Source: a virus. Taken from it: a DNA stretch of 59,165 nucleotides. Of this stretch, positions 2,339 to 59,165 are shown in pieces. The notes beneath the pieces are model-generated. The model did no database searches. It saw only the letters and a list, made by a program, of their open reading frames with translations, and was not told the origin of the DNA. The DNA lies in the IMG/VR virus record IMGVR_UViG_3300028418_000005, positions 1 through 59,165 of that record, one strand, 5' to 3'. Position 1 is the first letter of the stretch. Each line of letters starts with the position of its first letter. A program made the translations under genes and the position numbers.

Positions 2339-2434
2339 CTATTAATATAGCTAGTTTATGTAAATTATTTAAAAAACATGTAAATAGCTATTAATATACG
2401 TATAAAAAGAATATTCATTTAAAAAAACATAATT

Positions 2435-2611: not shown

Positions 2612-2613
2612 AT

Positions 2614-2844
2614 ATGAAAAAAATGGACAAGTATGAGGATAAGAAAGCCTCAATGGACGATTACTCGCACGAAAGAAAACTAAGAATAGACGGTAGATAT
2701 GAAGCTGCACATGGAAAAATGGCTGCAGCTAAAAACGATTTTGATCATGCACATGCTTTAAAGAAAGATGCGCACTATGATGCAAAGAATAGAAGAGATA
2801 AGAATTATAGACACCCTATATTAAAACATAATCACTCTAAATAA
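2614..2844 (+). CDS. Small highly charged His/Lys/Asp-rich protein, 76 aa
   Basis: Nearly every residue is charged or Ala. Lys, Arg, Asp and about seven His (DFDHAHALKKDAHYD) predict a long single helix with possible metal affinity. There are no cysteines or membrane segments. It sits between two likely structural or accessory genes in the rightward unit. No function is recognised. Confidence 0.6.
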   Translation: MKKMDKYEDKKASMDDYSHERKLRIDGRYEAAHGKMAAAKNDFDHAHALKKDAHYDAKNRRDKNYRHPILKHNHSK

Positions 2845-2852
2845 TAAATAAA

Positions 2853-7029: not shown

Positions 7030-8586
7030 ATGAGTGAAACAATAGTTAAGCATTTAAACTTCGGTGATGATGCTAGAAATAAGATATTCTCAGGAATTGA
7101 AAAACTCACTAAAGCTGTTAGCTCCACATTAGGAGCTAGCGGCAAGTGTGTTATAATGGAGGATAACGCAGGTAAACCAATAATAACCAAAGATGGTGTA
7201 ACAGTTGCAGATACTATTACATTGTTAGATCCTGTTGAAAACATGGGTGCTAGACTTTTAAAAGAAGCAGCTCAAAGAACAGTTAAAGACGCAGGTGACG
7301 GAACAACAACAGCCACTATACTAGCTAAAGCTATATTAGATGAAGCTTACAAACACGACAAGGCAGATACATTAAGAAATATTAAAGAAGGTATAAATCA
7401 AGGTGTAGAAAATGTTGTCAACTACTTGCAGAAAAAAAGTAAAAAAGTTAGTGGTAAAAAAATTGATCAAGTTGCTACTATATCAGCTAATAACGATAGT
7501 ACACTTGGTAAAATAATAGGTGAAGCGTTTAGACTCGTAGATAGTACAGGTGTTGTTATGATGGAAACAAACGACGACACTACTACAGTGGTTGAAGTGG
7601 TAGATGGCGCTCAATATGAAAAAGGATTATTAAATACACATTTTGTAAATAATAAAGAGAAAAACTCATGTGAGCTAGATAACCCTTACGTATTATTAAT
7701 AGAGAATAGTATTGAAAATGTAAGGCAGATACAAAGTGTTTTAGAATTTATAATAAGAACCAATAAAAGCTTATTAATAATAGGAGACGCTGAGCCATCT
7801 GTAGTTTCTGCACTGGCTATGAACAGGGTAAAAGGTAATATAAAGGTTAACATAATAAGTGCGCCTACACACGGTGTAAACAAACAAGTAACATTAGAAG
7901 ACTTAGCTTTGATTACAGGCGCAACTTTAATAAACGAAGACCTAGGTGATGACATGGACATGCTCACTGAAGAGCATTTAGGTAGATGTAAAAAATCTAC
8001 AACTACTCAAAGTGAAACTATACTGCAGCTTGAAGATTTTAATGATGAAATTAAAAAAGTTATAGAAGTTATAAAAGACAAGTTGAAAAAGGAGAATAAT
8101 CCAAATAAAATAGTTGCTTTAGAAAAAAGATTAGCTAGATTATCAGGTAAGGTAGCAGTTGTGAAAGTAGGAGCTAACTCAGAAGTAGAATTAAAAGAAA
8201 AAAGAGATAGAGTTGAAGATGCTATTTGTGCTACAAAAGCCGCTATAAAAGAAGGTATAGTACCAGGAGGCGGGATTGCTTTGTTGAATGCAGCAAACAA
8301 GCTTGAACCTAATAATATAGGAGAGGAAGTTCTATATTGTGCTATTAAAAAACCTTTTTTAGTTATACTAGAAAATGCTGGTATAACTGATTATAGCGCT
8401 CCAGATAACGAAGGCGAAGGTTTAAACGTGGTTACAGGAAAAACGGTGGATATGGTAAAAGCCGGAATAATAGATCCTTTACTCGTAACAAAAAGTGCTT
8501 TACAAAACGCGGCTTCTGTGGCTACAACTATATTATCTACTGATTGTGTAATTAATAATTTAAGAGCAAATGAAAGCGGTAGGTAA
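7030..8586 (+). CDS. groEL: Chaperonin GroEL, phage-encoded
   Basis: This is a 60-kDa group I chaperonin subunit, which forms an ATP-driven folding ring with GroES. The equatorial ATP-binding motif DGTTTATILAKAIL is present (about residues 87-100), as is the hinge segment RVEDAICATKAAIKEG with the catalytic Asp position (GroEL Asp398), followed by the GIVPGGGIALL loop. At 518 residues it is shorter than the bacterial 540-550. It has a diverged apical domain and lacks the Gly-Gly-Met C-terminal tail, ending ESGR. It overlaps groES by 17 bases. In phages such chaperonins fold capsid or tail proteins. Large virion proteins here, such as those of 996, 1753 and 3287 residues, are possible clients, by inference. 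Confidence 0.95.
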   Translation: MSETIVKHLNFGDDARNKIFSGIEKLTKAVSSTLGASGKCVIMEDNAGKPIITKDGVTVADTITLLDPVENMGARLLKEAAQRTVKDAGDGTTTATILAKAILDEAYKHDKADTLRNIKEGINQGVENVVNYLQKKSKKVSGKKIDQVATISANNDSTLGKIIGEAFRLVDSTGVVMMETNDDTTTVVEVVDGAQYEKGLLNTHFVNNKEKNSCELDNPYVLLIENSIENVRQIQSVLEFIIRTNKSLLIIGDAEPSVVSALAMNRVKGNIKVNIISAPTHGVNKQVTLEDLALITGATLINEDLGDDMDMLTEEHLGRCKKSTTTQSETILQLEDFNDEIKKVIEVIKDKLKKENNPNKIVALEKRLARLSGKVAVVKVGANSEVELKEKRDRVEDAICATKAAIKEGIVPGGGIALLNAANKLEPNNIGEEVLYCAIKKPFLVILENAGITDYSAPDNEGEGLNVVTGKTVDMVKAGIIDPLLVTKSALQNAASVATTILSTDCVINNLRANESGR

Positions 8587-12597: not shown

Positions 12598-12777
12598 ATG
12601 CCTATATTAAGCACTAAAAACACTATTGCCTGTGTTCGCTTGTTGAAAGGTTTGAAATCTCCTACTCCACCGGCACCAAGACCTGGAGATGATAAAATAA
12701 TTCAAGAACTAGGAGAGGAACCTATTTATATATTGCTTGAAAACAGTTCTAGTACAGATTTTATAATACAAGAATAA
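12598..12777 (+). CDS. Small hypothetical protein, 59 aa
   Basis: A 59-codon frame with a basic N-terminus (STKNTIACVRLLKGLK), a Pro-rich linker (SPTPPAPRPG) and an acidic C-terminal half (EEPIYILLENSSSTDFII). It overlaps the collagen-like gene by one base (TAATGG), so the two are likely co-translated. It could be a fibre chaperone or linker. This is unproven. Confidence 0.5.
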   Translation: MPILSTKNTIACVRLLKGLKSPTPPAPRPGDDKIIQELGEEPIYILLENSSSTDFIIQE

Positions 12778-13898
12778 TGGCTAATAAAAAAATATCACAA
12801 TTTACACCTCAAACTGACATAACTCAAATACAAGGTTTAGCTGGTTATGACCGCAATGAAAACATTAAAATTAGTGGTTCAGAACTAATAAGTTCTTTGA
12901 TAAATAATGGACTTGGTGGCATACAAGGACCTCCTGGCGAGCAAGGTGAACAAGGTATACAAGGAGAAACAGGTATTCAAGGACCTCCAGGTGAACAAGG
13001 AGAAGATGGTGTGCGAGGTTCTCAAGGTCTGCGAGGTGAAAAAGGTGATCCAGGAGAACAAGGTGAACAAGGAGAAAGTGGCGCTAACGGAGCTCAGGGA
13101 ATACAAGGAGTAAATGGAACTAATGGGACTAACGGAGCTCAGGGAGAAAGAGGAGAACCTGGAACAAACGGTAGAGATGGAGCTCAAGGAATACAAGGAG
13201 AGCCAGGAGAACAAGGTATTCAAGGATTACCTGGAGTTACAGGGGCGCAAGGTGGTGTAGGACCTGGTATTACACTTAAAGGTAATGTTGCTAATGTAAG
13301 TGATTTACCTGCAAGTGGAAATGCACAAGGAGACGCTTATATAGTACAATCAAATGATTCGATATGGATTTGGGATGGAGACGAATGGATTGATGGTGGG
13401 TCTATTCAAGGTCCTCAAGGGGTTCAGGGATTACCTGGAACAAACGGAACTAATGGAGCTAGAGGTATTCAAGGGGAAACTGGTGAACAAGGAGAGCAAG
13501 GTGAACCTGGAGTCGCTGGAGCTAGAGGACCAGCAGGAACTAACGGGACTAATGGAGCACAAGGAATACCTGGGGTTAATGGAACTAACGGTAGAGATGG
13601 AGCTAACGGATCACAAGGTGCTCAAGGTGAGCAAGGTGAAGAAGGAGCACAAGGTGCTCAAGGTCCAGCAGGTAGTCAAGGGCCAGCGGGCGCACAAGGT
13701 CCACAAGGTTTACAAGGCGACCCAGCTAAAACAGTTGACGTTATTGTTGATTTTGCTATTAATGAAGGTCCAATTACAAATATAGATTTAAACTCAAGAA
13801 GTGGTTGTGTAACTTTCACAACGGCATCTGGCTTTCAATTTGCGTTGGCTCCAGGAGAATGTAGACCTGAACTAAATCCAGATGATGAAGGTAGATAG
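12777..13898 (+). CDS. Collagen-like fibre protein, 373 aa
   Basis: Residues 1-42 (KKISQFTPQTDITQIQGLAG, then IKISGSELISSL) form a virion-attachment domain like those at the start of other phage fibres. Two long collagen tracts of Gly-X-Y triplets rich in Gln and Glu follow (about residues 48-160 and 212-318), which would form trimeric triple helices. A globular insert sits between them (about 161-211, with NVANVSDLP and DSIWIWDGDEW), resembling inserts in other tail fibres. A small C-terminal knob (about 320-373) may drive trimerisation. Likely role: a surface fibre used for attachment. The repetitive DNA produces open frames in other phases that are not genes. Confidence 0.85.
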   Translation: MANKKISQFTPQTDITQIQGLAGYDRNENIKISGSELISSLINNGLGGIQGPPGEQGEQGIQGETGIQGPPGEQGEDGVRGSQGLRGEKGDPGEQGEQGESGANGAQGIQGVNGTNGTNGAQGERGEPGTNGRDGAQGIQGEPGEQGIQGLPGVTGAQGGVGPGITLKGNVANVSDLPASGNAQGDAYIVQSNDSIWIWDGDEWIDGGSIQGPQGVQGLPGTNGTNGARGIQGETGEQGEQGEPGVAGARGPAGTNGTNGAQGIPGVNGTNGRDGANGSQGAQGEQGEEGAQGAQGPAGSQGPAGAQGPQGLQGDPAKTVDVIVDFAINEGPITNIDLNSRSGCVTFTTASGFQFALAPGECRPELNPDDEGR

Positions 13899-33968: not shown

Positions 33969-34370
33969 ATGAAATTAAATACAAGACAATTACAACAAAA
34001 AGATTTAGATACAATAAGAAAATGGTGGGAAGCTTGGCCTGATTGGGTTGATCCTGGTGAAGGGTTTTTACCTAAAACAGGTTTAGTTGTAACATCAAAT
34101 GACAAGTTAATAATGGCTTCTTTTGTTTATTTAACCAATGCAGATGTAGCTTTATATGAATGGATTATATCAGACCCAGATTATAGAGAGGACGATAGAC
34201 AAGAAGCTGTAGAGTTAATGACTAATGAAGCTGAGAAAATGGTTAAAAGCTTAGGATATAAGTTTTTATTTTCTATTTGCAGACATAAGAAACTCGGAGA
34301 AACGTATAAAAAATTAGGATGGCACAAAGATGAAGAGCCATCGTTTGAATTTGTAAAACTTATAAAATAA
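33969..34370 (+). CDS. GNAT-family acetyltransferase-like protein, 133 aa
   Basis: The sequence follows a small GNAT fold: an N-terminal strand-helix (NTRQLQQKDLDTIRKWWEAW), central strands (LIMASFVYLTNADVALYEWI), an acidic linker, the helix EAVELMTNEAEKMVKSLGYK, and the typical end IC..LGETYKKLGWHKDE. The Q/R-x-x-G-x-G/A acetyl-CoA loop is not clear, so activity is uncertain. It lies between tail and ejection genes. Small GNAT-like proteins in such positions are recurrent in marine phages to my knowledge, substrate unknown; it may modify virion or host proteins. Confidence 0.65.
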   Translation: MKLNTRQLQQKDLDTIRKWWEAWPDWVDPGEGFLPKTGLVVTSNDKLIMASFVYLTNADVALYEWIISDPDYREDDRQEAVELMTNEAEKMVKSLGYKFLFSICRHKKLGETYKKLGWHKDEEPSFEFVKLIK

Positions 34371-34376
34371 ATAAAT

Positions 34377-35096
34377 ATGGCATTAGTAACAGCAGCCGTA
34401 GTTGGAACAGTAGTAGGAGCGGGTATGGGTATAGCATCCGCTGTAAAAGCTGGTAACGATCAACGTGAGGCAGAGAAAAAACTAAGAGAGCAAGAAGCAA
34501 TGATAAAAACTCTTGAAGACTCTAGACAAGATGTAATAAACCCTATGGCTGGGTTGACCAATGAAGCTGAGAAAGTAGGTGTTGCTACACAAGCTGCTAA
34601 GTTTCAAGCTGAAGAAGCAGATCAAGCTTTAGCAAACACTTTAGACACTATCTTACAAACTGGTGGTGGTGCTGCTGGCGCTACAGCGTTAGCTCAAATG
34701 GCTCTTAAGTCTAAACAAGGTATATCAGCTGATATTCAAAAACAAGAAAGACAAAACGCTGTAAACGTAGCTAACTCACAACAAGTGATAAATCAACAAA
34801 TAGCTGAAGGTGAAAAGTTTGCTTGGCAATATCAAGAAACTAGAGAATTACAAAAACTTAATAGAGCACAAAATTTAGCAGATAAATTTGAAGCTCAAGG
34901 TTTTGCTGCTGAACAAGCTAAATGGGCAGCTTACGGTAATATTGCTAGTAGTATAACTGGTGGAGCGGGTAACATTGCTGGTGCTGTTAATACAAATCAA
35001 TTGCAAGGTCAGTATGATCAATATTTGGCTCAAGCAAACGCGGGTCAAAATGTGTCACCACCAGTAGCAGTTGGTCAAGGTTCAATAGGAGGTTAA
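34377..35096 (+). CDS. Internal virion (ejection) protein, T7 gp14-like, 239 aa
   Basis: The N-terminus is a hydrophobic Gly/Ala-rich segment (ALVTAAVVGTVVGAGMGIAS) able to enter membranes. A long Gln/Ala/Glu-rich helical body (residues 27-190) and a second Gly/Ala segment (SITGGAGNIAGAVN) follow. This layout and its place ahead of two larger internal proteins match T7 gp14, which is ejected and forms a channel in the outer membrane. No enzyme motif is visible. Confidence 0.7.
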   Translation: MALVTAAVVGTVVGAGMGIASAVKAGNDQREAEKKLREQEAMIKTLEDSRQDVINPMAGLTNEAEKVGVATQAAKFQAEEADQALANTLDTILQTGGGAAGATALAQMALKSKQGISADIQKQERQNAVNVANSQQVINQQIAEGEKFAWQYQETRELQKLNRAQNLADKFEAQGFAAEQAKWAAYGNIASSITGGAGNIAGAVNTNQLQGQYDQYLAQANAGQNVSPPVAVGQGSIGG

Positions 35097-35109: not shown

Positions 35110-37626
35110 ATGGGCTACGAAAATCCAAGAATACAGATAAACCAAACCAACGCTGAGATTAATAAGCAGGTAAGAAGATTTAACGAAGACTTTAATGAAG
35201 AGTTCGATGCTATCAATGCTCAACAAGCTGCTAACATAGAAGCTAATATGGAAATATTGGAAGAACAGCAGAAGAAAAGAGCTATGGGTGACGAAATGTG
35301 GTATCAGCAAGTAGAGAAATACAAGCCAAAAGGTGACTACGCTAAAGATACTAAAGCTTTTTTACATAATATGCATAATAAGTATTATGAACTTTTAGGT
35401 TGTGAAACTAGTGAATGTAGAGAAGAGTTAGAAAACTTAAAAAATGTGCCTAGACAACTATCTGAAGTTGGTGGAGCTTGGACAAGTATGAATGAAAAAT
35501 ACAATGAAGCTGGCGGTAAAAAACTATTTGCACCTGGGTCATTAAATGCTAGAACACCAAACTATATCATGCAGGTAATGGAAAACGGTGGTACAACTAA
35601 AAAAGTTTATAACGAAAAAACTGGTCATGTAGAGTTTGAAGTTTACGACGCTAAAGGTGGTCGTGTAATGGAATTAGACAAAGATGGTAAAAAAACAAGT
35701 AACCCATTAATGGTGGATGCTGTTGATTTCACTAAAGGTGCTTTAAGTGGTAATGTAACTGTAAACACCTATGGTGATCCTGCGGGATTAAGAAGAGAGT
35801 TTCAGGCTGGTATAGCTAAAGACATGGATTATAATGATTATGTTCAAAAAATTACTGATAACACTGATCAATACAATAAAAAAGGTTATCAAGACTACAC
35901 AGAGGCTAATAGTTTATATAAGCAAAACCTAGAAGGATCAAATGCTGGGGCTTTAATGGATGATAAAAAACTAATGACTGATAACTATCCCGTTATAATA
36001 AATGGTTTATTTGAGCAAGCTAAAGGTGGAGATCAAGCTGCTTTAGCTTCTTTAGAGAAATTAGATCAACAAACAGGAGGTAAGATATTAGGTGGTGATG
36101 GCTTAGGTGGTACTAATGATTTAGATTTATCAAGTGGTTTAGCTGTTCAGTCAGCTATAGGTATGTGGGATAACTCTGATATTCAAAGAGAAGCTGCTGA
36201 TGCTTATTTCAAGCATTATGATGAATCTTCAAACTTGTTAAAACCAGATAGAATAGACAAAACAAATGTTAAGAGTTCAATAACTAATGCCGAGAGAAGA
36301 GCTCAAGCAAATTTCAATAAAACTCAAACAAAAGATATAGCTAATCTTAAAGCTGCAAATAATGAAAAAGAGTTTGTTACTAATTTTGATAACATGTTTG
36401 CTAATGCTAAATCATCCGACGATATTTACAAAATATTACAAAATGATCTTGGAAATTTCGCAATGAAGAATAGTAACGCTGGTAGTGGTAGTATTCTTGA
36501 GTTTACAGGTGATGAACCAAAAGATCGACAATTTGACATAGATGATAATGGGGATGGTACTTTTTCTATAAAATTAAATAAAATTTCTAAAGATCCTAAA
36601 ACAAATGAAGTTACTACAGGAGATGCAGTAAGAATTTATAATACTGGAAATGCTAATGATATGAGCTCTCTTAGAAGAGACTTTGGTATAAACAATAAAA
36701 CTTACAAATTACAAGGTGAAGCTCCTAGTGAGCAAGAAGAACAAGCTACTTCCGCTACCCAACAAAACAATCCACTAAATGCTGCTAGTTTTAATAAAAA
36801 TAATCAACCTAAACCTAAACCAGAGGCTAAAAGTGACTTTATTCCAGATCCAAATGTAAACTACGAAAGTTTACCAATGATGGATAAAAGAAGAGTAGAA
36901 TATGAAAATTGGAAACAATCACAAGTTCCTGAAGAGCTGCAAGATCCTGTTTCTAAAGTTAAACCTGCTCCTGAAGTTAAACCTGCTCCTGAAGTAAAAC
37001 CTGAACAAGTAAAAAGTAAGGCACCACAAACAAGTAGGGATTTAAAAGCTGAAAATAAAAAGCAAGAAGATTTAATGAGAAACTCTGAGGTTACTTACGG
37101 TGGTAAATCAGGTGATGACACTATTGGTTTAACAGATTATGAAGATTATGATTTTAAATATTACTTAAATAGTGAAAAACAAGTACAAGAAGGAGTTGAT
37201 AGAAATGGTGAAATGGCTACATATTGGGGAGGTGATCAACCTAAGAAAGGTTTGAAAAAAGATTTAGGTGAAAAAGTTTATGATGGATTATCTGATGGAC
37301 AACAAGCTATGATGCGAATGCAGCATGTTAATATAGGCTGGGATCCTAGAGTTACTATGCTACTAGCATCTGGAGCAATCAAGCCTAGTGAAAGAGGAGA
37401 ATATCTTAGAAACTACAAGAAAACAACTACTAAATATAATGATAATAAAGCTAAGTTTAAAAATATAGATGATCAAGCAATGTTTGATCAATGGGTAGAT
37501 TTATATGCAAATAGTGAACCAAATACAAAAGGATTACAAAAGCAATATAAAAGAAGAGTAGAAGATATGGCTAAAAGTTATGGATTTAAGTTAACAAAAG
37601 AACAGCTTGATTTGTTTAAAGTATAA
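35110..37626 (+). CDS. Internal virion (ejection) protein, T7 gp15-like by position, 838 aa
   Basis: A long, hydrophilic, mostly helical protein with Gln-, Asn- and Lys-rich coils at the N-terminus (AQQAANIEANMEILEEQQKK). It has a central mixed domain and a disordered Pro-rich linker at about residues 610-650 with tandem KPAPEV repeats. The final 190-residue domain contains aromatic and charged blocks. It sits between the gp14-like gene and the giant protein, as gp15 sits between gp14 and gp16 in T7. Direct similarity was not tested, so the role is inferred from order and size. Confidence 0.55.
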   Translation: MGYENPRIQINQTNAEINKQVRRFNEDFNEEFDAINAQQAANIEANMEILEEQQKKRAMGDEMWYQQVEKYKPKGDYAKDTKAFLHNMHNKYYELLGCETSECREELENLKNVPRQLSEVGGAWTSMNEKYNEAGGKKLFAPGSLNARTPNYIMQVMENGGTTKKVYNEKTGHVEFEVYDAKGGRVMELDKDGKKTSNPLMVDAVDFTKGALSGNVTVNTYGDPAGLRREFQAGIAKDMDYNDYVQKITDNTDQYNKKGYQDYTEANSLYKQNLEGSNAGALMDDKKLMTDNYPVIINGLFEQAKGGDQAALASLEKLDQQTGGKILGGDGLGGTNDLDLSSGLAVQSAIGMWDNSDIQREAADAYFKHYDESSNLLKPDRIDKTNVKSSITNAERRAQANFNKTQTKDIANLKAANNEKEFVTNFDNMFANAKSSDDIYKILQNDLGNFAMKNSNAGSGSILEFTGDEPKDRQFDIDDNGDGTFSIKLNKISKDPKTNEVTTGDAVRIYNTGNANDMSSLRRDFGINNKTYKLQGEAPSEQEEQATSATQQNNPLNAASFNKNNQPKPKPEAKSDFIPDPNVNYESLPMMDKRRVEYENWKQSQVPEELQDPVSKVKPAPEVKPAPEVKPEQVKSKAPQTSRDLKAENKKQEDLMRNSEVTYGGKSGDDTIGLTDYEDYDFKYYLNSEKQVQEGVDRNGEMATYWGGDQPKKGLKKDLGEKVYDGLSDGQQAMMRMQHVNIGWDPRVTMLLASGAIKPSERGEYLRNYKKTTTKYNDNKAKFKNIDDQAMFDQWVDLYANSEPNTKGLQKQYKRRVEDMAKSYGFKLTKEQLDLFKV

Positions 37627-37632
37627 AATAAT

Positions 37633-40600
37633 ATGAACGAAGAGTATTTAGAGTTATTATTTTCCGCCTACGGAAACGAAGTAGGTGACGACTACGACGC
37701 ATTTAAAACTGCTATGAGTAATGAAGACTACTCAAGAATGCTATTTGAAACTCACTCTGAAGAATTAGGTGATGATTATGCGGAGTTTAATAAAGCTGTA
37801 GGTATAAATATTGAACCTTATGTTGAACCAGAGGAAGAAGTTTCTATGTCTGGAGAGTATGGGGTAAAAGAGCAAGATGTATTTGGCAGTTCTGAGCCAA
37901 TAAAACCAGTTATTAGTAAAGATATATCTTACGATGACTTTAATATGAAAGGACAAAATTCAGCTTTTGATAATGCTGAAGAGGATTTAGAAGATAAACT
38001 TTCTGCATTATATCCTAATTTAACCTTTGATACTCCTATAATGAACGGTGGTGTGTCTAGTGACATGCTAGATGTAACTAACGAAGACGGGGAAGTTTTT
38101 AGTTGGAAAATGAACACTGATTACAACGCTGGTAAAAGAGACTCAGATGGTGAGTATACAGTTGTAGATCCAGAAGATAGAGAGCAAGAAAGTAGAGATA
38201 ACTATATAAATTTTTTAGAGTTTGCCAATAAGTCTAAATATAAAGATGGTAAGTATAAAAATCCTAATGATATAAGAACTTTAGGCCCAGATTATATGGT
38301 TAAAAACGACCAAGGTCAAGATATAGAGATGCAAGTTACCCCTGGTTTGACTCAAAAAGCAATATCTATAATGAAATCAAACCCAGATGTAACATCATTA
38401 GATGAAGCTATAGATATAGCTGTTGACACTGAGTTTGGACAAATGAATATAGCTTGGCAAGGGTCTGTTCAAAATAAAAAAGCTAAAGAAAACTTTGAGT
38501 TTAAAAACAAAGTTAAATCATTAGCTTCTGATAATAATTTTAATCCTAACATAAGTGGTAGCGCAACTGGACTAGAAGCTAGTTCTGAATTAAATAATAC
38601 TATTGAAGTATTAGAAGAATTAGGTATGCCTAAAGAAGTTGTTGCTTCTGCTAGAGCTGATGCTGAGAATAATATAGGTTTTTTAGATTACCTAGCTAGT
38701 GGAGGATCTTCTAACCCTATGTCTTTTAACGCTGGAGACCCTACATTTACTAGACCTGCTTCTGTAGCTGCTAGAGGAGTTGTTAATTCAAACCAAGAAA
38801 TAAGAAACAACGTTAGAGCCTGGTTAGATGGTTCACAAACATGGGGAGAAAACACTAATGGACCGCTCGTTTTAAAAGCTTATAATGAGTTTGTTGATCA
38901 AAAAAGCAAAGAAGAAGCAGATAACAATATCAAACAAAAAGTAATTGAAGATGGTATAAACCAGGAACAGGTAATAAAAAGACAAGAACAATTATTAAAT
39001 GCCGAAGGTAATACGTTAAGTAAAGAGCAAGCTCTAGTACAAGCAGAGAAAGATGTAATAGCTTTAACTGTTCAAGATATTAAAACAAAAAAAGCTAAAG
39101 AAGATGGTGATAGAGTTTTAAAAGCTGAACTACCTTATTATGAGGGTAAGAGTAAAAGCAAAATAGAAGCATTACAATCTGAATTAGCTGAAATAAACAA
39201 ATTAGAAGAAGGGCAAGAAAAAGCAATAAAATATAAAGAATATTTAAATAAAGTTAGAGATTTCTTAGATGATGATGAGGTTAATTTATTAAAGCAGGGT
39301 GATAAGTTTGTAAGAAAAGACAGACAAGAACAAGCAGATAATTTAAATTCAATTGTTAAAAGTGGTGTTAAAGATTTACTTTTAGAAGCTCCGGACAAGC
39401 TAGATGAAAAGTTGTTAGATACAGACACTGAATTGTTAAACCTAGCTAAAGAAATAAAAAGAAAAGGTTTAAGTGAGACTTTAAATGAGGGCAGTGCTTT
39501 ACAACTAGTAGGAGCTTTAGGTCAAGAGCTTGTAGGAGCTGAAGGTAGTGCCTTTGAAGATTTTAGAAAAATAGAAAAATGGGTTGAAACTGGTGAAATG
39601 CCGGATTTATTAACACCATTGCCGGTATCAACTACAGATAGTTATTTAACTAGCCCTTATGGTGATGCTAGTGGTTCAGATCCTTTGGTAAAAAAATATA
39701 ATGATTTACTTCAATATAGATCTACATTACTTTTAGCTCAAAGTTTAAACGCGGATCCAACTTCTTTTGGTAAAACAGAAAGTGGTGTTGGTAGGTTTTT
39801 AGAAGGCGTAGTAGAAGCTACTCCTGAAGCAGTAGGCATGAATAGTGGTTTAACTAATGATAAACAGCGTGAATTAGGTTTTGACATCTTAGAAGACGTC
39901 TATGGTATTAAAAAGACGGATAAAGACAAGGCTAATCTATATCAAGTAGAGCACGATCTTTGGAAAAGTTCTGGTAAAATGATACCTGGCTTAATGAGAA
40001 TGGGAGCTGAGATATACTTAACAACTGTAGCAACTGGTGGCATGGGATTTGGTCCTGCTGTTTTAAGATCTGCTACATTTAGAACTCTACTAAGAGGTGG
40101 AGTATCAAGAGGTATGGCTGATAAAATTGCTGCTTACGGAACTGCTGTTATGACAGAATATGTAGGTTTACAAGGTAGTAATGCAATGGAAAGAAGTTTA
40201 GATTTTGGACCAGGTATAGAAAATCCAGGATTGTTTGCTCTAACAGCTAGTGCTATAAGATTAACAGGTGCACAAGCTTCTAGCAAGTTTAATGATGCCA
40301 TTATAGATACTTACAGAACAGGTTCTAATGCACAGAGAAATGCTTTAGAATATTTTTATGCTTTTCCTACTACGGCGTCTACAGAAGCTGGAGCTTTAAA
40401 ATATACTAATAGTTTAGTTGATAGATCAGTCAAGTCTTTAAGTAGAACTACAATGGCTGCTGGTGGTAAGATAACAGGAGCTGCTGGTGGTGCTTTAACC
40501 ATAAGCACAGCTGATAATGTTGGTGCAGTATTAGCAGGTGATAAAACTGTTGCTCAAGCCTTGAACGATGTTACCAATCCTGATCATTTAATGGAGTTAG

Positions 40601-43600
40601 GCGGAGCTTTATTGTTTTTAGGTATGTCTAGACCAGACAAGTATAGTAAACAGACTATAGAAAGATTTAGAACAGAGGTAGATTTAATAAGAGGGAACAA
40701 TCCACAGTGGAATAAACTTAGAAGATCTCTAGGTATGAAAACTGTTTCTGATAAAAGCGAAGAGTACGAACAAGGTGAAGAAGCTTTTTCTGAAAGAGTT
40801 GATTCAGCTTTAGAACTTAAAAAAGAGGAAATAAATAATAGTAACAAATCTGATGCTCAGAAAAATCAAGAAATATCTGCATTAGAATTTAACGCTAATA
40901 GATTAAAATTAAAAATACCTTTAGATGTTTTAGCTAAAGATTTGGCAAACCCAGCAGTCATGGGTAGCTATAAAGAATTAGAGCAAGCTGCTTATGCTAT
41001 ATCTACAGGAGGTTTTAATGCTAAGAACTTGTCTGTTATAGAAGCTGCATCTTTTACTAGTGACGGAACGTCTGGTGTTAAAATGTTAGAGTTTTATGGA
41101 TTAGATGCTGCTCAAGCCCAACAAGTTGTAGATTTTAGTTACTCAATGAGAGATGTAGCTAAAAGACATTTTCAAGGAGATTTAACTAATGCTAATTTTC
41201 AAAAATACATAGACGAATCTATAACAGAAAGTAGATTAGAATCTTCTAAGGAAAAAATAAAGAAAAATTATGAAGCTAAACGCATAGATAAAGCTGATTA
41301 TGAATCTCAAACAGAAGAAATAGATGCTCAACTAGATATTAACTTGAAATCTAAAAAGCGATTACTTGAAGCTGCTAAAGTAGAAAGAGCAGGCAAAGAG
41401 TTAGAAAAAATTGAAGAATACAAGAAAGCTGGTTTTGAAATTAAAGAAATGAACGATGCTGAAATGAAGAAATTCATGGAAGATAATGGTGGTAATTTTA
41501 GTTCAACTGGTTTTGGTTATCAAGGTGTTGTTAATGGTAAGTCTATAGCTTTAATTAACACGGATGCTACTGCTAGAGAAAATGTTGGTGGAACAGAGGT
41601 ACATGAAATATGGCATCATCCATTTGAAAGAAGACTAGGTGACGAAGCTATGGCTAAGAAAATAGAGTCTTTAATGAAAGATGAAAATCTAACAGAAGAG
41701 CAAGCATCAGCCAAAGTGGACAGCGAAGCTAGGGAATACTTAGATGGTTTTCAAAATGCTTTAGAAAACAGAGGTATATTAGACTTAGTTGACAAAGAAG
41801 TATTTTCAAGACCAGGAATACTAAAAGAGCTTGTAGAAATAGACAAAGACGGTAACGTAAGCCTTAAAGATATGTCTAATGTTTCTATACGTGAAATGAA
41901 AGAGTTTGTTAATGAGTTTATACAGTTAAATGAAAATGGTGCTTTTAATAATTTAAAATCTGAAGGACAAAGAAAAGCTGCTGAAAAACAAAACACTAAA
42001 GATCTTACAGAAAAAGAGTACAACGACGCGTTAAATGATCCTATTAAATTTGTAGACTTTGTCTTGAGTGGTAAGTATAATAGTAAAAATATTAATGATT
42101 TTTTAAAGCGTGAAGCAGATGCTTTAGGTATGGAAACTGAAACAACGGGTTTACAAGCATCGGAAAAAATAATATCTAAAGGTAGTAAAGACGCTTCTGA
42201 AGTAAACAAAAAAATTGAAACTAAAATTATTGATCAAGGTAGTGGTGGTGTAAGAGTTAGGGATATAAAAGATTCTAAGTTTAAAAAACAAATTACAGAT
42301 GAATTAACTAAAGCTAATAACACCATGATAGAGGTTAGAGCTAGAAGAGCAGCTAATAATCCTAGAATACAAGCTTTAGAACCTTCTAAAAGAGTTTCTG
42401 AAAAAGAATTTCAATCTGCTTTTAATGCTGAGTTTGTTGAAGCTTTAGGTCAGTACAAGCCAGTTGTTGATGGTAAAAGAATACCATTTGGAGCATATAT
42501 GAATCAACGTTTGACTCAACGATTTAAACAAGCTTTAGACAAAGCTAAGCAAGGTCAATTTGAAGGTCCTGAAGTTAGATTAGAACAACCCACGAAAGAA
42601 GGTGAAAGAGGTTTTGATACTGAATCAAAAGATCTTAACCCTGAAGAAGCTATGATAGCTAAAGAGTCAGGTAAAACTGAAACTACTAAAGAAACTAAAA
42701 CAATAAATCCATTAGAAGCTCCAAATGTAAAACCTAAAGCAAAAGAAATTGAAGATGCTATAGACTTTACAGAGGCAGATGCTGTAGGTATGCGTACAGG
42801 TGGTTTTAAAGGAGTAGGTGAAACTTACGGAGGTAAAGCTGCTTCAATAGCTTTTGGAGTTCCTGAAGCTAAAATAATGGATCCAAAGAAAAATCTTACT
42901 TATGCTAAGAAGATTAAAGATGGTATTCCAGAACCATCTGAAGCTGGTAATATTCAACAAGCTTTTACTAATAAAAGTAAAGTAGAAACATTTATTAAAA
43001 ACCTACCTGAGACAAATGTTAGTGACATGCAGACTAATATTGGTTTAGAAAAACTAAATGTATCAAGAGATGTATATGGTTATGGAACTGGTATTAATAA
43101 TAGAGTATTAAAAACTTTTTATAATAAAACTGGTAAAAGATCTAAAGGTTTGACTAGTCAACCTGCTATATGGGAATTAAAACCAGAGTTTAAAGGTAAA
43201 ATATCTAATGAGACTATAGCTAAAGTACAAAAAGAATTAGGTATTACAGAAGCTGGTCAATTAAATAAGTATGATAGAAACATTGGTCAATTACTTAAAG
43301 GAGTTGCTAAGCTAGAAGGTTATCAAATAGCTAATACAGTTGTAAGAAAAAAGATAGAGGGTATGGATATTAAGTCCGCAACCCCTACAAAACAATTATT
43401 AGCAGATTTAAAGGCTGGAGCAAATAGATTTCAGGCGTCAGCAAAAAAGAAAAGCATTCAAGAAAAAAGTGATGAAAGACTAGATAAAAAAGCTCCAGGC
43501 ACAAAATCAATTCAAAGTCAAATTGGTCAAAAAACAGTTGTTCAAAGAGTTACTAAAGCTATGCTTGGGGACGTGGCTGATGCAGGAGGAAACTTTTTCC

Positions 43601-46600
43601 TTAAACAAGGAGGTTTCATGGGTTCGTCAGTGTGGAACAATTCTGGTGCATTGTTTGAAGCTGCTTTAAGAAAAGGTTTTCCTTTTGTAGGAAATTATTT
43701 AAATAAAATAGAGTCGCTCACTAAAGACTTCATTGTTAAAGAAGAAATGACAGAAGCTAAAGCTAGAAAAAAAGCTGAAGAGGTAATGTCTTTAACTAAA
43801 GAAGCTTTAGATTTAGGTTTAACTTTAGAAACTTCTTCATTGCAGAAAGCGATGAAAGAACAAATAAAAAGTAATCCAGAAAAATACAACAAGTATAGTG
43901 ACAAACAATTAAAGCAATTAGATAAAGCTATTAATGCTCAAGACTATAAAAAGTTAGAGAAAAACTTAACAGAATTATCTGATATAAAAGCAGGTAAAGA
44001 CTTGTTAATAGATATGTTTAAAGAAATATATGATAAAGATTCTAAAAACTTAGATGTATTATCTTACATGATGTATCATGCTAATTCTAACTCACATCCT
44101 ATGAGAAACTTTGCTACTGTATTAGGCAAGGAGTTAGGTTTAAAAGGTAGAGGACATGAAGAACACACTCTTCCTTTTGGTGAATTTAGTCAACTAATGT
44201 TAGATGCTATAACAGGGAAAAATGTAGATCTACCTGGTTTTAAAAAATGGATTAATGAAAATTACTTTCAAGAAGTAACTAGTAAAGGAGATCCTAATAA
44301 TGGAATATTTAAAACTAAAGAAATATTAGATCACCCTAGAAGATCAACTGATAAATTAGGCAATGATCTAGAATCTTGGGACTCCGCTAATCAACTTCAT
44401 CCCGAACTTAAAATACAACTTGCTGAAGCATTAGCTGGTAAAAGAAAATTTAAAGATGTAATATCGGCAGATATAAGAAAATATAATGAGTATTCGTCAG
44501 AAAGAGGTTATGTAAATCCTAATAAAATGAATAGACTAGGTGTTACTGACGCTAAAAGATACAACGTTGAGGTTCCTAAAAAGTTACAAAACAATTCTAA
44601 CATAATAGAAATACAAAATCATTTAATACACCAGCAGCTTATAGGCAAGATGAGTGCTAAAGAAGCTAGAGAAATGATGGATTTAGCTATTAAAGATGCA
44701 CCTGCTAGGTTAAAAGCTACAAGAGCTGATTATAAAATGTTAAAACAATCTCCTGTACTTAACTTAAGTGAAAAAATGTCTACTAATGATTTGGTTAGAA
44801 AAGCTAGAATTATAGACAAGGCACTGGCTAATGCTAGAAAAACGAACAAAAAACCTAAAAAAATTAGAGTATTTGATTTTGATGATACTGTTGGTGTTAG
44901 CAAAAATAAAGTATTTGCATTAAGAGAAGGTGTAAAAAAAGTATTAAATGCGGAGGAGTTTGCTAAAGAAGGTTTAGATCTTATAGATGAGGGTTGGGAA
45001 ATGGACTTTTCTGATTTCAATAAAGTAACTGAAGGTGGTAAAGGTCCATTATTTGACTTGATGAAGACAATGAAAGAAGCTAAAGGTGAAAGAGATATGT
45101 TCATACTAACTGCTAGAGCTCCTGAAGCTGCACCTGCAATACACATGTTTTTAAAGGAAATGGGTATTGATATACCTATAGAAAACGTTGTTGGACTAGG
45201 TAAATCTACAGGCGAAGCTAAAGCTAATTGGCTAGTTGGTAAAGCTGCAGAAGGATATAATGATTTTTATTTTGCTGACGATGCACCTCAAAATGTTAAA
45301 GCAGTTCGTGACGCTTTAGAAGTTCTTGATATTAAATCTCAAGTTCAACAAGCTAGAATGAATGCTAGTGAAAAGCTAAGTGAGGACTTTAATAAAATAC
45401 TAGAAGAAAAAACAGGTATAGGTGCGGAGAAAGTGTTTTCTGATATTAAAGCTGAAATAAGAGGTAATAAAGCTAGAAAGCAAAAATTCTTTATACCACC
45501 ATCTGCCGAGGATTTCTTAGGTTTATTATACGCTACATTACCAAAAGGTAAAAAAGGTGAAGCTGCATTAGACTTTTATCAAAAGAATTTATTTGATCCT
45601 TACACTAGAGCTACAGATAATTTATCAAGAGATAGAGTGAATTTAATGGATGATTTTAAAGCTCTTAAAAAAGAATTAGATGTTCCAGCAGATCTTAGAA
45701 AAGAAACTAAATCAGGTTTTACTAATGAACAAGCTGTAAGAGTTTATATGTGGGGAAAAGAAGGTAAGGATGTTCCTGGATTATCTAAGTCTGATTTTAA
45801 AGAACTAAATGACATTATTGAAGGTGATGCTAAATTAAAATCTTTTGCTGATCAAATATTTGAAATAACAAAAGGAGATGGATACAATACCCCGGGTAAG
45901 GACTGGGCTGTAGGTACTATAACAACAGATCTTATAGAGGTTCTTAACAAAACTAAAAGAGCTAAGTATCTAGAACCTTGGAAACAGAATGCTGACATTA
46001 TATTTAGTAAGGAGAACTTAAATAAGCTTGAGGCAGCTTATGGCAAAAAATATAGAGAAGCTATGGAAAACACGCTTTCTCGTATGAAATCTGGTAGTAA
46101 TAGAACATCAGGTGGTAATAGATTAAGTAATCAAGTTTTGGATTATATAAATAACTCAACTGGTGTCACCATGTTCCTTAACACTAGATCTGCGCTACTA
46201 CAAACAATATCAGCTGCCAACTTTGTAAACTGGAGTTTTAATAATCCGCTAATGGCTGGTAAAGCTTTTGCTAATCAACCTCAATACTGGAAAGACTTTG
46301 TTAAGCTAATGAACTCTGATTATTTAAAAGACAGGCGTAATGGTCTTAAACTTAATATAAATGAATCTGAAATAGCTGATGCTGCTAAAACGTCAAAGAA
46401 TAAAGCTAAAGCTGCTTTAAATTATATATTAGAAAAAGGTTACTTACCTACTAAATATGCAGATAGTTTTGCTATAGCATCTGGTGGAGCTATGTTTTAT
46501 AGAAATAGAATAAATGATCTTGTTAAAAAAGGTTTTACTATTAGTGAAGCAGAAACTCAAGCAATGAAAGAGTTTAGACAAGTGTCAGAAAAATCTCAAC

Positions 46601-47496
46601 AGTCTTCTGATCCTAGTAAAATATCTTCTCAACAGTCTGGTGATTTAGGTAGGATAATACTACAGTATGCTAATACACCTATGCAGTATGCTCGTATACA
46701 AAAAAGAGCTGTACAAGATATAGTGAACGGAAGAGGAGATATGAAAGCTAATGTTAGTAAAATAATATACTATGGATTTTTACAAAACTTAATATTCAAT
46801 GCTTTACAACAAGGAGCATTTGCTTTAGGATTTGGAGATGACTTTAGTGATAAAGATAAAGATGATAAGTTAGTTAATACTGTTAACGGTATGTTAGATT
46901 CTTCTCTTAGAGGTTTAGGATTAGGCGGTGTATCTCTTCAAGTTCTTAAAAATTTAGGTTTAGATGTTTATAAAAGATCAAAAAGAGATAGACCAGAATA
47001 TGTAGATTCTTACTATAAGCTGCTTGAATTTTCACCTGCTATAAAAAGTAAGCTATCAAGGTTTAAGTCTGCAGCCTACCCGTTTGATAGTAAAAAACGT
47101 AGAGCAGAAGTTTTTGATAAAGGTTTTAGCTTGGACAATCCTGCTTATGAATCGATGGCTAAGGTTGTAACAGCAGTTACTAATGTGCCTTTAGATAGAA
47201 TGTATTTGAAAATTGATAATTTGAAAAATGCTACAGCAGATGAGACTGAAACTTGGATGGGAGTTGCTAACTTTCTAGGTTGGCCAACATGGCAGCTAGA
47301 ACCTAAAGAATATAATAAAGCTAATAATGTTAGTGTTAAATCAACAGTTCCAAAAGTTAAAACAAAAAAGGAAAAAATTGATAAATTAAAATCTATGACC
47401 TATATACAGCTAAGGAATAAAGCTAAAAAAGAAGGTAAAGAGTATTCAGGTAAGAATAAAAAAGAATTGATAGATATACTAAAGAAAAATATGTAA
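37633..47496 (+). CDS. Giant multidomain ejection (polyvalent) protein, 3287 aa
   Basis: The largest gene in the window. The N-terminus has two copies of a 24-residue repeat (YLELLFSAYGNEVGDDYDAF and YSRMLFETHSEELGDDYAEF, about residues 5-56). Gly/Ala-rich hydrophobic stretches follow (about 790-990), which might cross membranes. HEIWH at 1324-1328 fits a zinc metallopeptidase site. A Lys/Glu-rich middle follows. A HAD phosphatase-like domain spans about 2411-2575, with DFDDT (Asp2415, Asp2417), Thr2493 in LTAR and acidic pair Asp2549-Asp2550 in FADD. A long conserved-looking domain has aromatic and basic blocks (about 2600-3220). The end is SAP-like (about 3250-3287, MTYIQLRNKAKKEGKEYSGK). 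Such giant proteins in phages are packaged and injected, and may protect or process DNA or host factors on entry. The domain calls are motif-based. Confidence 0.75.
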   Translation: MNEEYLELLFSAYGNEVGDDYDAFKTAMSNEDYSRMLFETHSEELGDDYAEFNKAVGINIEPYVEPEEEVSMSGEYGVKEQDVFGSSEPIKPVISKDISYDDFNMKGQNSAFDNAEEDLEDKLSALYPNLTFDTPIMNGGVSSDMLDVTNEDGEVFSWKMNTDYNAGKRDSDGEYTVVDPEDREQESRDNYINFLEFANKSKYKDGKYKNPNDIRTLGPDYMVKNDQGQDIEMQVTPGLTQKAISIMKSNPDVTSLDEAIDIAVDTEFGQMNIAWQGSVQNKKAKENFEFKNKVKSLASDNNFNPNISGSATGLEASSELNNTIEVLEELGMPKEVVASARADAENNIGFLDYLASGGSSNPMSFNAGDPTFTRPASVAARGVVNSNQEIRNNVRAWLDGSQTWGENTNGPLVLKAYNEFVDQKSKEEADNNIKQKVIEDGINQEQVIKRQEQLLNAEGNTLSKEQALVQAEKDVIALTVQDIKTKKAKEDGDRVLKAELPYYEGKSKSKIEALQSELAEINKLEEGQEKAIKYKEYLNKVRDFLDDDEVNLLKQGDKFVRKDRQEQADNLNSIVKSGVKDLLLEAPDKLDEKLLDTDTELLNLAKEIKRKGLSETLNEGSALQLVGALGQELVGAEGSAFEDFRKIEKWVETGEMPDLLTPLPVSTTDSYLTSPYGDASGSDPLVKKYNDLLQYRSTLLLAQSLNADPTSFGKTESGVGRFLEGVVEATPEAVGMNSGLTNDKQRELGFDILEDVYGIKKTDKDKANLYQVEHDLWKSSGKMIPGLMRMGAEIYLTTVATGGMGFGPAVLRSATFRTLLRGGVSRGMADKIAAYGTAVMTEYVGLQGSNAMERSLDFGPGIENPGLFALTASAIRLTGAQASSKFNDAIIDTYRTGSNAQRNALEYFYAFPTTASTEAGALKYTNSLVDRSVKSLSRTTMAAGGKITGAAGGALTISTADNVGAVLAGDKTVAQALNDVTNPDHLMELGGALLFLGMSRPDKYSKQTIERFRTEVDLIRGNNPQWNKLRRSLGMKTVSDKSEEYEQGEEAFSERVDSALELKKEEINNSNKSDAQKNQEISALEFNANRLKLKIPLDVLAKDLANPAVMGSYKELEQAAYAISTGGFNAKNLSVIEAASFTSDGTSGVKMLEFYGLDAAQAQQVVDFSYSMRDVAKRHFQGDLTNANFQKYIDESITESRLESSKEKIKKNYEAKRIDKADYESQTEEIDAQLDINLKSKKRLLEAAKVERAGKELEKIEEYKKAGFEIKEMNDAEMKKFMEDNGGNFSSTGFGYQGVVNGKSIALINTDATARENVGGTEVHEIWHHPFERRLGDEAMAKKIESLMKDENLTEEQASAKVDSEAREYLDGFQNALENRGILDLVDKEVFSRPGILKELVEIDKDGNVSLKDMSNVSIREMKEFVNEFIQLNENGAFNNLKSEGQRKAAEKQNTKDLTEKEYNDALNDPIKFVDFVLSGKYNSKNINDFLKREADALGMETETTGLQASEKIISKGSKDASEVNKKIETKIIDQGSGGVRVRDIKDSKFKKQITDELTKANNTMIEVRARRAANNPRIQALEPSKRVSEKEFQSAFNAEFVEALGQYKPVVDGKRIPFGAYMNQRLTQRFKQALDKAKQGQFEGPEVRLEQPTKEGERGFDTESKDLNPEEAMIAKESGKTETTKETKTINPLEAPNVKPKAKEIEDAIDFTEADAVGMRTGGFKGVGETYGGKAASIAFGVPEAKIMDPKKNLTYAKKIKDGIPEPSEAGNIQQAFTNKSKVETFIKNLPETNVSDMQTNIGLEKLNVSRDVYGYGTGINNRVLKTFYNKTGKRSKGLTSQPAIWELKPEFKGKISNETIAKVQKELGITEAGQLNKYDRNIGQLLKGVAKLEGYQIANTVVRKKIEGMDIKSATPTKQLLADLKAGANRFQASAKKKSIQEKSDERLDKKAPGTKSIQSQIGQKTVVQRVTKAMLGDVADAGGNFFLKQGGFMGSSVWNNSGALFEAALRKGFPFVGNYLNKIESLTKDFIVKEEMTEAKARKKAEEVMSLTKEALDLGLTLETSSLQKAMKEQIKSNPEKYNKYSDKQLKQLDKAINAQDYKKLEKNLTELSDIKAGKDLLIDMFKEIYDKDSKNLDVLSYMMYHANSNSHPMRNFATVLGKELGLKGRGHEEHTLPFGEFSQLMLDAITGKNVDLPGFKKWINENYFQEVTSKGDPNNGIFKTKEILDHPRRSTDKLGNDLESWDSANQLHPELKIQLAEALAGKRKFKDVISADIRKYNEYSSERGYVNPNKMNRLGVTDAKRYNVEVPKKLQNNSNIIEIQNHLIHQQLIGKMSAKEAREMMDLAIKDAPARLKATRADYKMLKQSPVLNLSEKMSTNDLVRKARIIDKALANARKTNKKPKKIRVFDFDDTVGVSKNKVFALREGVKKVLNAEEFAKEGLDLIDEGWEMDFSDFNKVTEGGKGPLFDLMKTMKEAKGERDMFILTARAPEAAPAIHMFLKEMGIDIPIENVVGLGKSTGEAKANWLVGKAAEGYNDFYFADDAPQNVKAVRDALEVLDIKSQVQQARMNASEKLSEDFNKILEEKTGIGAEKVFSDIKAEIRGNKARKQKFFIPPSAEDFLGLLYATLPKGKKGEAALDFYQKNLFDPYTRATDNLSRDRVNLMDDFKALKKELDVPADLRKETKSGFTNEQAVRVYMWGKEGKDVPGLSKSDFKELNDIIEGDAKLKSFADQIFEITKGDGYNTPGKDWAVGTITTDLIEVLNKTKRAKYLEPWKQNADIIFSKENLNKLEAAYGKKYREAMENTLSRMKSGSNRTSGGNRLSNQVLDYINNSTGVTMFLNTRSALLQTISAANFVNWSFNNPLMAGKAFANQPQYWKDFVKLMNSDYLKDRRNGLKLNINESEIADAAKTSKNKAKAALNYILEKGYLPTKYADSFAIASGGAMFYRNRINDLVKKGFTISEAETQAMKEFRQVSEKSQQSSDPSKISSQQSGDLGRIILQYANTPMQYARIQKRAVQDIVNGRGDMKANVSKIIYYGFLQNLIFNALQQGAFALGFGDDFSDKDKDDKLVNTVNGMLDSSLRGLGLGGVSLQVLKNLGLDVYKRSKRDRPEYVDSYYKLLEFSPAIKSKLSRFKSAAYPFDSKKRRAEVFDKGFSLDNPAYESMAKVVTAVTNVPLDRMYLKIDNLKNATADETETWMGVANFLGWPTWQLEPKEYNKANNVSVKSTVPKVKTKKEKIDKLKSMTYIQLRNKAKKEGKEYSGKNKKELIDILKKNM

Positions 47497-56108: not shown

Positions 56109-56867
56109 TTACAGGAAGTCAACCACTTGCGAGTGATCTACATTCTCTATAAGTTTGTCTACAGCTTGCTTTTTTAACTCTGAAACCCGCACATAAGAGG
56201 ATATACCTTTTATATCTAGTTTTTCTGCTATTTGTTTAGCTGACCACTTAGGACCATCAAGTCCATAACTTTTACTAAGAGTAAAAACTTCGTTCCACTC
56301 TAGGTGTTTTGTTAATAAACTCATAATATAGGTGTTTAACATTTCTTCGTTATAAGGATCTGACTGATCAGGTATTTGATAAATCATATCTTCGTCGTCA
56401 TATGGTTTTTTGTCTATACTTAAAAACATAGAATTAAAAAACATAGCAACCATTTTTTTATCTTTACCTCCATCTTTGCGTATTTCATTTAGCTTGTGTT
56501 CTGGTATCCTCATTTGAGCTCTGTTTTTGTCTATTTCTCTTCTTATACCTCCACGTATGCGTTTAGCAAAAAAAGATTTTAATGATTTCAACTTGTCTTC
56601 TGATTCTAATAACTTATCTCTATCAAGCTTACCTACAGCTTTACAAAGTTGCATGCTACCTTCTTGTAATAAATCCATGATAGACATAACACCTGAAGCT
56701 TCTTGAGCTGTTGAAAATTTTCTAGCTACATTTTCCACTAAAGGTAAAAATATTAATTTAAGCTCTTCATCAGTGTAATCTACATAGTCTCTTACAGGTA
56801 TTATAGCTAAAGCTCTTTTAATATCTTCTTTATACCTTATATAGTTTTTTACATTATATTTTTTCAT
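56109..56867 (-). CDS. Sigma-70-family sigma factor, 252 aa
   Basis: Region 2 is visible: FLPLVENVARKF, then a MSIMDLLQEGSMQLCKAVGK helix. Next comes FFAKRIRGGIRREIDKNRAQ with MRIPEHKLNEIRK, closely following the bacterial region 2.4-3.0 pattern (RTIRIP). Region 4 has SAKQIAEKLDIKGISSYVRV as the recognition helix. The protein would replace host sigma on RNA polymerase and read phage promoters. It overlaps the next upstream gene by four bases, and a 43-base AT-rich gap separates it from erf. The dyad/TATAAT motifs at 6676 and 13914 are candidate targets. Confidence 0.8.
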   Translation of the reverse strand: MKKYNVKNYIRYKEDIKRALAIIPVRDYVDYTDEELKLIFLPLVENVARKFSTAQEASGVMSIMDLLQEGSMQLCKAVGKLDRDKLLESEDKLKSLKSFFAKRIRGGIRREIDKNRAQMRIPEHKLNEIRKDGGKDKKMVAMFFNSMFLSIDKKPYDDEDMIYQIPDQSDPYNEEMLNTYIMSLLTKHLEWNEVFTLSKSYGLDGPKWSAKQIAEKLDIKGISSYVRVSELKKQAVDKLIENVDHSQVVDFL

Positions 56868-58532: not shown

Positions 58533-58623
58533 AATATTGTGCATTTTCTTCCCAGCAATCACTACAGCAAGAGTCGTGACCGCTAGTTGTTAATGATTTG
58601 TTACACATATCGCATTTATTCAT
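58525..58623 (-). CDS. Zinc-ribbon micro-protein, 32 aa
   Basis: A 32-residue peptide with Cys at 4, 7, 19, 20 and 23 (CDMC ... CCSDC), a compact four-Cys zinc knuckle. It overlaps the ligase stop by eight bases and the next zinc-ribbon gene by eight. It could be a mini adapter, or the two together might form one treble clef. Real status rests on overlap and Cys spacing. Confidence 0.5.
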   Translation of the reverse strand: MNKCDMCNKSLTTSGHDSCCSDCWEENAQYYE

Positions 58624-59165
58624 AATTTCTTATCGCTTTATAGTGTGGGTGTCTGTAACTACCTGCTTTAGTTCGTTCGAAGTATGTAAATGTAGCATAC
58701 TGACCGATGTAGTCGTGTATATTTTCTAGCATATTAGCTAAGTCTTTGTAATTGTAGCCTTTACCTGGAGGACAGCCAAACTCATTACCTTCATAATCTT
58801 GCATAATAAATTTACCAAGTGTACCTTCACGTTTACCTTTACCTATTTCATAGCCAATAATTGTAGCTTCTGCATCGTGAAAGTCTTTAAACTTCATAAG
58901 ATCCCATGATCTTGTACCTTTGTACTTGCCTTCAAACGATCTGTATATAGAGCCTTCGTAACCTAGTTTAAGGTTTTTAGCATGTATTTTTTGTGCGTCG
59001 TCAAAATCTAGAGCTACTTGAGTATCACTTATACATAAACAACTGCTAGTTCTAAACATAGCTGAATTTTTAAGTGAGTTTACAAAATTCATACGCCAAG
59101 TGTAAGTAGCATGAGGAAAGCTAGCTACATCATATATATGATATTGTACTAGTTCTGCAGCTTCT
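58616..59165 (-). CDS. ATP-dependent DNA ligase, C-terminal part, cut by right edge
   Basis: The open frame continues upstream of the internal Met at 59092 to the window edge, so the 5' end lies outside. The visible 182 codons include the motif III-like YHIYDVASFPHATYTW, motif IV LGYEGSIYR, and motif V DLMKFKDFHDAEA with the Lys pair. An OB-fold end with GTLGKFIMQD and TYFERTKAGSYRHPHY follows. It seals nicks in replicated or recombined phage DNA, as in T7 and similar phages. The adenylation Lys motif is outside the window. Confidence 0.88.
   Translation of the reverse strand, partial: EAAELVQYHIYDVASFPHATYTWRMNFVNSLKNSAMFRTSSCLCISDTQVALDFDDAQKIHAKNLKLGYEGSIYRSFEGKYKGTRSWDLMKFKDFHDAEATIIGYEIGKGKREGTLGKFIMQDYEGNEFGCPPGKGYNYKDLANMLENIHDYIGQYATFTYFERTKAGSYRHPHYKAIRNYE

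Follow-up and report, generated by a model that had tools for sequence, protein, structure and literature searches.

The phage polyvalent proteins (Iyer et al. 2017, PMC5512222) are giant multidomain proteins, and their zincin metallopeptidase (MPTase) domains have an HExxH or HExxxH helix followed by a Glu-bearing helix. A HAD phosphatase is not mentioned in the main text of that paper, and the open-access literature yielded no report of one in a polyvalent protein. The product of a giant gene in the window, by which we mean the whole 59,165-nt stretch of viral DNA that was analyzed, is also a giant multidomain protein with a predicted HExxH plus Glu zincin and, in its relatives, HExxxH variants. 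One relative carries ART-PolyVal-like cargo, and the C-terminal core resembles proteins with an LPD annotation. Unlike in the described polyvalent proteins, the HAD is here the constant module, with other enzymes nested inside it.

The gp52, gp51, and gp50 proteins of phage N4 (Schitoviridae) have 150, 644, and 3500 residues, respectively. The gp50 protein is ejected, and its HExxH is followed by a large helical C2 domain (PMC12633501). The N4 vRNAP is packaged unprocessed, yet its MPTase region is required for encapsidation (PMC5512222), and its C-terminal domain inhibits the polymerase (PMC12633501). The present locus matches N4 in gene order, has proteins of similar sizes with a giant in the range of ~3300–3500 residues, and shares the succession of an HExxH domain and a large helical C-terminal domain. 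In contrast, no RNA polymerase domain was detected in the window protein, which has a HAD instead, and C-terminal homology was undetected by hhalign against the single N4 sequence. The T7 gp14-gp15-gp16 genes are similar to the window genes in that three genes of like order and relative size close the structural module. The window giant, which is likened to gp16 by gene order and size, is more than twice as large, and Pfam finds no lysozyme or transglycosylase domain in it.

For the HAD, the closest comparison is T4 PseT, since both match PHROG 415, a profile that covers the phosphatase half of PseT, and some relatives of the window protein add a kinase. The differences are that the window protein has no kinase, that the kinase of the relatives is nested in the HAD flap rather than being N-terminal, and that the window HAD is housed in a giant virion-type protein. 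HADs of jumbo phages are known as end-healing phosphatases, some of them fused to polynucleotide kinase (PMC7824862).

The cassette that holds the giant gene recurs, with homologous neighbors, in the Flavobacterium phage Elemovirus and in Cellulophaga phage phi38:1, where it ends in gp20 (3694 residues, with an HEIFH motif) and gp101 (1691 residues), respectively. These same-position giants are annotated as structural. Unlike the window protein, neither has a HAD motif or a C-terminal core with detectable homology, and phi38:1 gp101 also lacks an HExxH.

The Giant Gene and Its Cassette

The giant protein is encoded by a single intact frame of 3287 codons, exactly where the initial annotation had placed it. 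The HEIWH, DFDDT, Thr2493, and Asp2549–2550 motifs listed there are likewise all found at the residues given, which are shown with the other features in Table 1. The gene comes last in a cassette in which it is preceded, in order, by genes for a 133-residue GNAT-like protein, a 239-residue protein, and an 838-residue protein. Every one of 64 loci has a homologue of the 239-residue protein encoded upstream of the giant gene, and at 62 of them an ORF of more than 250 residues abuts the giant gene. The T7 gp14-15-16-like position that had been claimed for the giant is thus borne out by a recurrent small-middle-giant cassette, whose order is identical in N4.

Table 1. Features of the giant gene and its cassette in the window.
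Feature	Position	Strand	Basis or remarks
133-residue GNAT-like protein	33969..34370	+	homologues phi38:1 gp098, elemo gp23, ctfjg026
239-residue protein, hydrophobic N-terminus, T7 gp14/N4 gp52 position	34377..35096	+	
838-residue protein, T7 gp15/N4 gp51 position	35110..37626	+	
3287-residue giant protein gene	37633..47496	+	intact frame; relatives 2300–3700 residues
N-terminal tandem repeat, residues 2–28 and 30–56	37636..37800	+	alignment score 70 vs. shuffles
Gly/Ala-rich hydrophobic region, residues ~700–1040	39730..40752	+	iterative HMM; common to ~17 relatives
Zincin-like metallopeptidase core, residues ~1265–1380	41425..41772	+	motif conservation, AF2 model
HEIWH zinc motif, residues 1324–1328	41602..41616	+	invariant in alignment A1
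Putative third-ligand Glu1368, next helix	41734..41736	+	Glu in 64/65 relatives; model helix 1355–1379
Conserved domain with HEEHTLP motif, residues ~2116–2218	43978..44286	+	present in 44 relatives
HAD phosphatase domain, residues ~2407–2569	44851..45339	+	motifs, AF2 model, PHROG 415
HAD motif I DFDDT, residues 2415–2419	44875..44889	+	alignment of 55 relatives
HAD flap β-hairpin, residues 2427–2438	44911..44946	+	kinase or ART-like insertion point in relatives
Conserved all-helical C-terminal core, residues ~2600–3225	45430..47307	+	AF2 model; BFVD matches
C-terminal helix-loop-helix (SAP-like end)	47365..47490	+	low confidence, not conserved

The GNAT label of the 133-residue protein is taken from the annotation of ctfjg026, and a search against the PDB gave no match for this protein. 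Of its homologues, phi38:1 gp098 is annotated as structural and that of ctfjg026 as an acetyltransferase; taken together, these annotations suggest that an acetyltransferase may be packaged in the virions.

Searches with the whole giant protein against Pfam, NCBIfam, and PDB sequences returned only noise. The evidence for its make-up comes instead from conservation among relatives and from structural models. An MPTase-type motif and a HAD are kept together in one protein in 61 relatives, and the claim that a metallopeptidase and a full HAD reside in one giant protein is upheld by the conservation of the zincin-like motif and by the complete set of HAD motifs. In addition, a segment at residues ~1587–1689 (window 42391–42699; PFGAYMNQRLTQRFKQAL), which is also present in 11 relatives, has a sequence resembling region 2 of sigma factors.

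The Zincin-like Domain

Exactly one HExxH is present in 62 of 67 full-length relatives. Of the others, one (L040) has HEPGH, three (L011, L065, and L074) have HExxxH, and solely L007 is without any such motif. Thus, HExxH or HExxxH is found in 66 of the 67, as against 0.55% of shuffled sequences. The motif lies 854–1245 residues ahead of the HAD in full-length relatives (median 1072), and a Glu follows 40 residues beyond the second His in 64 of 65. In the AF2 model of this region (pLDDT 75), the HEIWH helix comes after a small β sheet, and Glu1368 is on the next long helix. The relatives are mostly only 10–17% identical in the zincin region, and the retention of HExxH and Glu in the face of such divergence indicates catalysis of some kind. 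Weak Pfam M78/M90 matches are obtained in this region with relatives, while the window protein gives none. From the motif, the placing of the Glu, and the model, HEIWH is predicted to mark a zincin like those of phage polyvalent proteins.

The initial annotation had held that its reading would fail if structure predictions placed HEIWH and DFDDT in unrelated folds. DFDDT does lie in a HAD fold. The model around HEIWH has the right arrangement of helix and Glu, although the fold search with the MPTase against solved zincins was swamped, its lists being filled by matches to an N-terminal coiled coil.

The HAD Phosphatase

The four HAD motifs are DFDDT at 2415–2419 (I), T2493 (II), K2530 (III), and D2549/D2550 (IV); the motif III Lys was missing from the initial annotation. 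All 55 aligned relatives have D2415, D2417, T2493, and K2530 unchanged, and D2549 and D2550 are conserved in at least 90% of them. In an AF2 model of residues 2341–3287 (pLDDT 75), residues 2407–2569 (model residues 67–229) align with HAD phosphatases in VIA-align, with Z from 9.5 to 7.3 and nearly all of the matches listed being HADs. The structural neighbors include the nucleotide-binding acid phosphatases AphA and e(P4). Foldseek matches of the multidomain model to the PDB were weak, and the HAD profile found no match among PDB sequences.

PHROG 415, “polynucleotide kinase”, is the sole PHROG that matches the window HAD (1.4e-6). It matches the HAD in 46 of the 55 relatives and also residues 154–298 of T4 PseT (3e-24), which are its 3′-phosphatase half. 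Since a direct hhalign comparison of the HAD with PseT aligned only motif I, with 42% probability, the connection to the polynucleotide kinase (PNK) sub-family is made through this shared profile, and we assign the HAD to a PNK-type sub-family with moderate confidence. Its substrate would be polynucleotide ends or nucleotides. The action on host nucleotides or RNA ends that had been suggested earlier fits this result as far as “RNA ends” are concerned, the closest HAD profile being that of the polynucleotide-kinase phosphatase family. One relative, L021, has lost motif I.

Domains Nested in the HAD of Relatives

The distance between motifs I and II is usually 70–89 residues. It is ~280 residues in eight relatives (L039, L041, L067, L088, L094, L105, L106, and L108), all of which have a zeta/PNK-like kinase insert; one scan targeted the kinase, so eight cases are not a representative frequency. 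In L041 and L067, the insert is a P-loop kinase by Pfam (Zeta_toxin, 5.6e-14; AAA_33, 1.4e-13), and the nested kinase also matches the T4-PNK profile phrog_505 (1.5e-9). Zeta-like kinases can phosphorylate UDP-GlcNAc. The kinase sits at the tip of the flap hairpin, right after motif I, and L014 has an ART-PolyVal-like domain at the same flap position (E = 0.0011, below the Pfam cut-off). Neither a kinase nor an ART-PolyVal domain was found by Pfam in the window protein. Among the scanned window genes, no RNA ligase was recognized, and there is a DNA ligase fragment at the window end.

In five other relatives (L038, L048, L051, L057, and L080), the HAD is directly followed by an extra domain of ~110–150 residues, which in L048 is a relative of phrog_16075.

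The Helical Core and the Termini

In BFVD searches, the model of the C-terminal core retrieves giant proteins, among which direct homologues reach E values as low as 1e-59. Other viral giants follow at 1e-15 to 1e-5, with large rmsd, and several of these bear the name large polyvalent protein, ART-PolyVal, or MuF. This modeled resemblance to LPD/ART-PolyVal-annotated giants, at large rmsd, supports membership in the polyvalent class. No significant match was obtained by hhalign of the core against the giants of phi38:1, elemo, ctfjg026, and N4 (a single sequence for N4). The ctfjg026 alignment lands in the equivalent place with P 0.04, and the C-terminus of ctfjg026, used as the query of a scan, turned up no relatives.

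An N-terminal repeat with a 24-residue unit had been described. A repeat is indeed present, with an alignment score of 70 where the best of 1000 shuffled sequences reached 44, but its unit is 27 residues, in two copies at a spacing of 28. No classical transmembrane helix rises above the hydropathy cut-off in the giant protein. The SAP-like DNA-binding end that had been proposed is not sustained as a defined domain: a single one of 51 relatives matches the HeH model YqbF_HeH (E = 0.0059, below the cut-off), the tail is modeled at a pLDDT of ~58, and tails differ among relatives.

Distribution and Host

A scan of IMG/VR located relatives at 268 places, so the family occurs in at least 268 viral contigs; 80 of these places were read. 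The relatives are giant proteins of ~2300–3700 residues. Residues ~2300–3225 are common to 71–72 of 73 proteins, and the remainder is found in fewer. On sequence comparison, what stays constant across the family is the HAD together with the helical C-terminus of 620 residues, and the other regions vary. A scan with the HAD only found 549 places. By tblastn, neither the giant protein nor its HAD has a relative among 50,697 phage records. In one of the relatives found in IMG/VR (L070:4537–13432), two consecutive frames encode the giant, with the break falling between the zincin and the HAD, which may reflect a frameshift or a real gene split.

The closest relatives of the terminase and portal are from phages of Flavobacterium, Cellulophaga, Tenacibaculum, and Maribacter, which agrees with a host in the Flavobacteriia. 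Matches in bacterial assemblies fall on contigs from Flavobacteriaceae bins and from other marine bins, and the binning is only suggestive of the host. Judged from these sequences, the source is probably an uncultured marine phage of Flavobacteriia.

Proposed Role of the Giant Protein

The description that fits the window protein best is that of an ejection protein of the phage polyvalent class, in which a zincin is combined with a PNK-type HAD. The identity of both enzymes is well supported, and gene position and analogy suggest that they would be delivered into the host with the DNA. We lean toward a giant ejected polyvalent protein that is probably self-processing and carries an end-healing or nucleotide phosphatase. 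The head would contain several copies. Packaging, as well as passage through an ejection channel that would be built with the 239- and 838-residue proteins, may depend on the hydrophobic region and the helical C-terminal module. The zincin would cut the chain, in the head or in the cell, freeing working pieces. During the first minutes of infection, the HAD would strip phosphate from polynucleotide ends or nucleotides, these being products of host nucleases or of defense. In some relatives, the kinase nested in the HAD would provide the matching 5′-kinase half. Some results speak against this reading: the window protein itself lacks a kinase, the scanned window genes included no recognizable RNA ligase, and the C-terminal core gave no detectable homology to the N4, phi38:1, elemo, or ctfjg026 giants.

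Self-cleavage is the uncertain step, given that the N4 vRNAP, with its MPTase, is packaged unprocessed. Instead, the zincin may cut some target in the host, or it may have been retained for a part in packaging or regulation, like that in N4; this alternative has an appreciable chance of being right, although we do not favor it. The need for the N4 MPTase region in encapsidation (PMC5512222) and the inhibition of the polymerase by the N4 C-terminal domain (PMC12633501) fit such a role, and the retention of HExxH and Glu through so much sequence divergence tells against it. The target of the HAD may also be other than polynucleotide ends, so that a delivered polyvalent protein would act on free nucleotides or on nucleotide second messengers of host defense. 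HAD phosphatases have broad substrates, AphA and e(P4) are among the structural neighbors, and signal-degrading enzymes have been proposed in injected polyvalent proteins (PMC7824862). We nevertheless consider this doubtful, as the best profile is that of the polynucleotide-kinase phosphatase family, which T4 PseT matches too, and as relatives nest a PNK/zeta-like kinase in the HAD; the latter point is not decisive, in view of the use of UDP-GlcNAc by zeta-like kinases.

The location of the gene inside the structural module, where its positional equivalents are annotated as structural, would suit a tail or head protein that is not ejected and whose HAD and zincin act in assembly. This seems improbable to us, for the gene order is that of the T7 and N4 ejection cassettes, and the swapping of cargo-like kinase and ART domains fits effectors better. 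Finally, poorly conserved middle regions and the silence of Pfam on the window protein might be expected if the motifs had arisen by chance in a disordered giant or if the frame were an assembly chimera. That explanation is contradicted by motif conservation far above that of shuffled sequences, by the HAD fold of the model, and by dozens of independent contigs in which the order is unchanged, and it deserves practically no credence.

Returning to the ejected, self-processing protein, it is possible to go further, and we do so tentatively. A widespread uncultured marine phage lineage, probably infecting Flavobacteriia, might inject a self-processing giant with a constant PNK-type HAD, the flap hairpin of which would be a docking port for a kinase or an ADP-ribosyltransferase; in some members, the injected kinase-phosphatase might then heal nucleic-acid ends at entry. 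Injected multi-tool proteins are known, and a constant phosphatase that accepts inserted enzymes appears to be new. Injected enzymes act ahead of phage gene expression and so decide the first contact with host defense. If a phosphatase whose catalytic residues are conserved across the lineage does enter with the DNA, this would point to a need for end repair or for the removal of signals at that stage, and the nested kinase and ART-like insertions make up a natural set of variants for testing giant-protein function.

Other Genes of the Window

An ATP-dependent DNA ligase (phrog_114) at 58616–59164 (−) is truncated by the window end, so the record is probably incomplete. On the same strand, 56109–56867 encodes a sigma-factor-like protein (phrog_351, 2.3e-11). 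On the plus strand, a GroEL-type chaperonin (Cpn60_TCP1, 2.4e-55) is encoded at 7030–8586, and phi38:1 has one too; a collagen-like repeat protein of 373 residues is encoded at 12777–13898.
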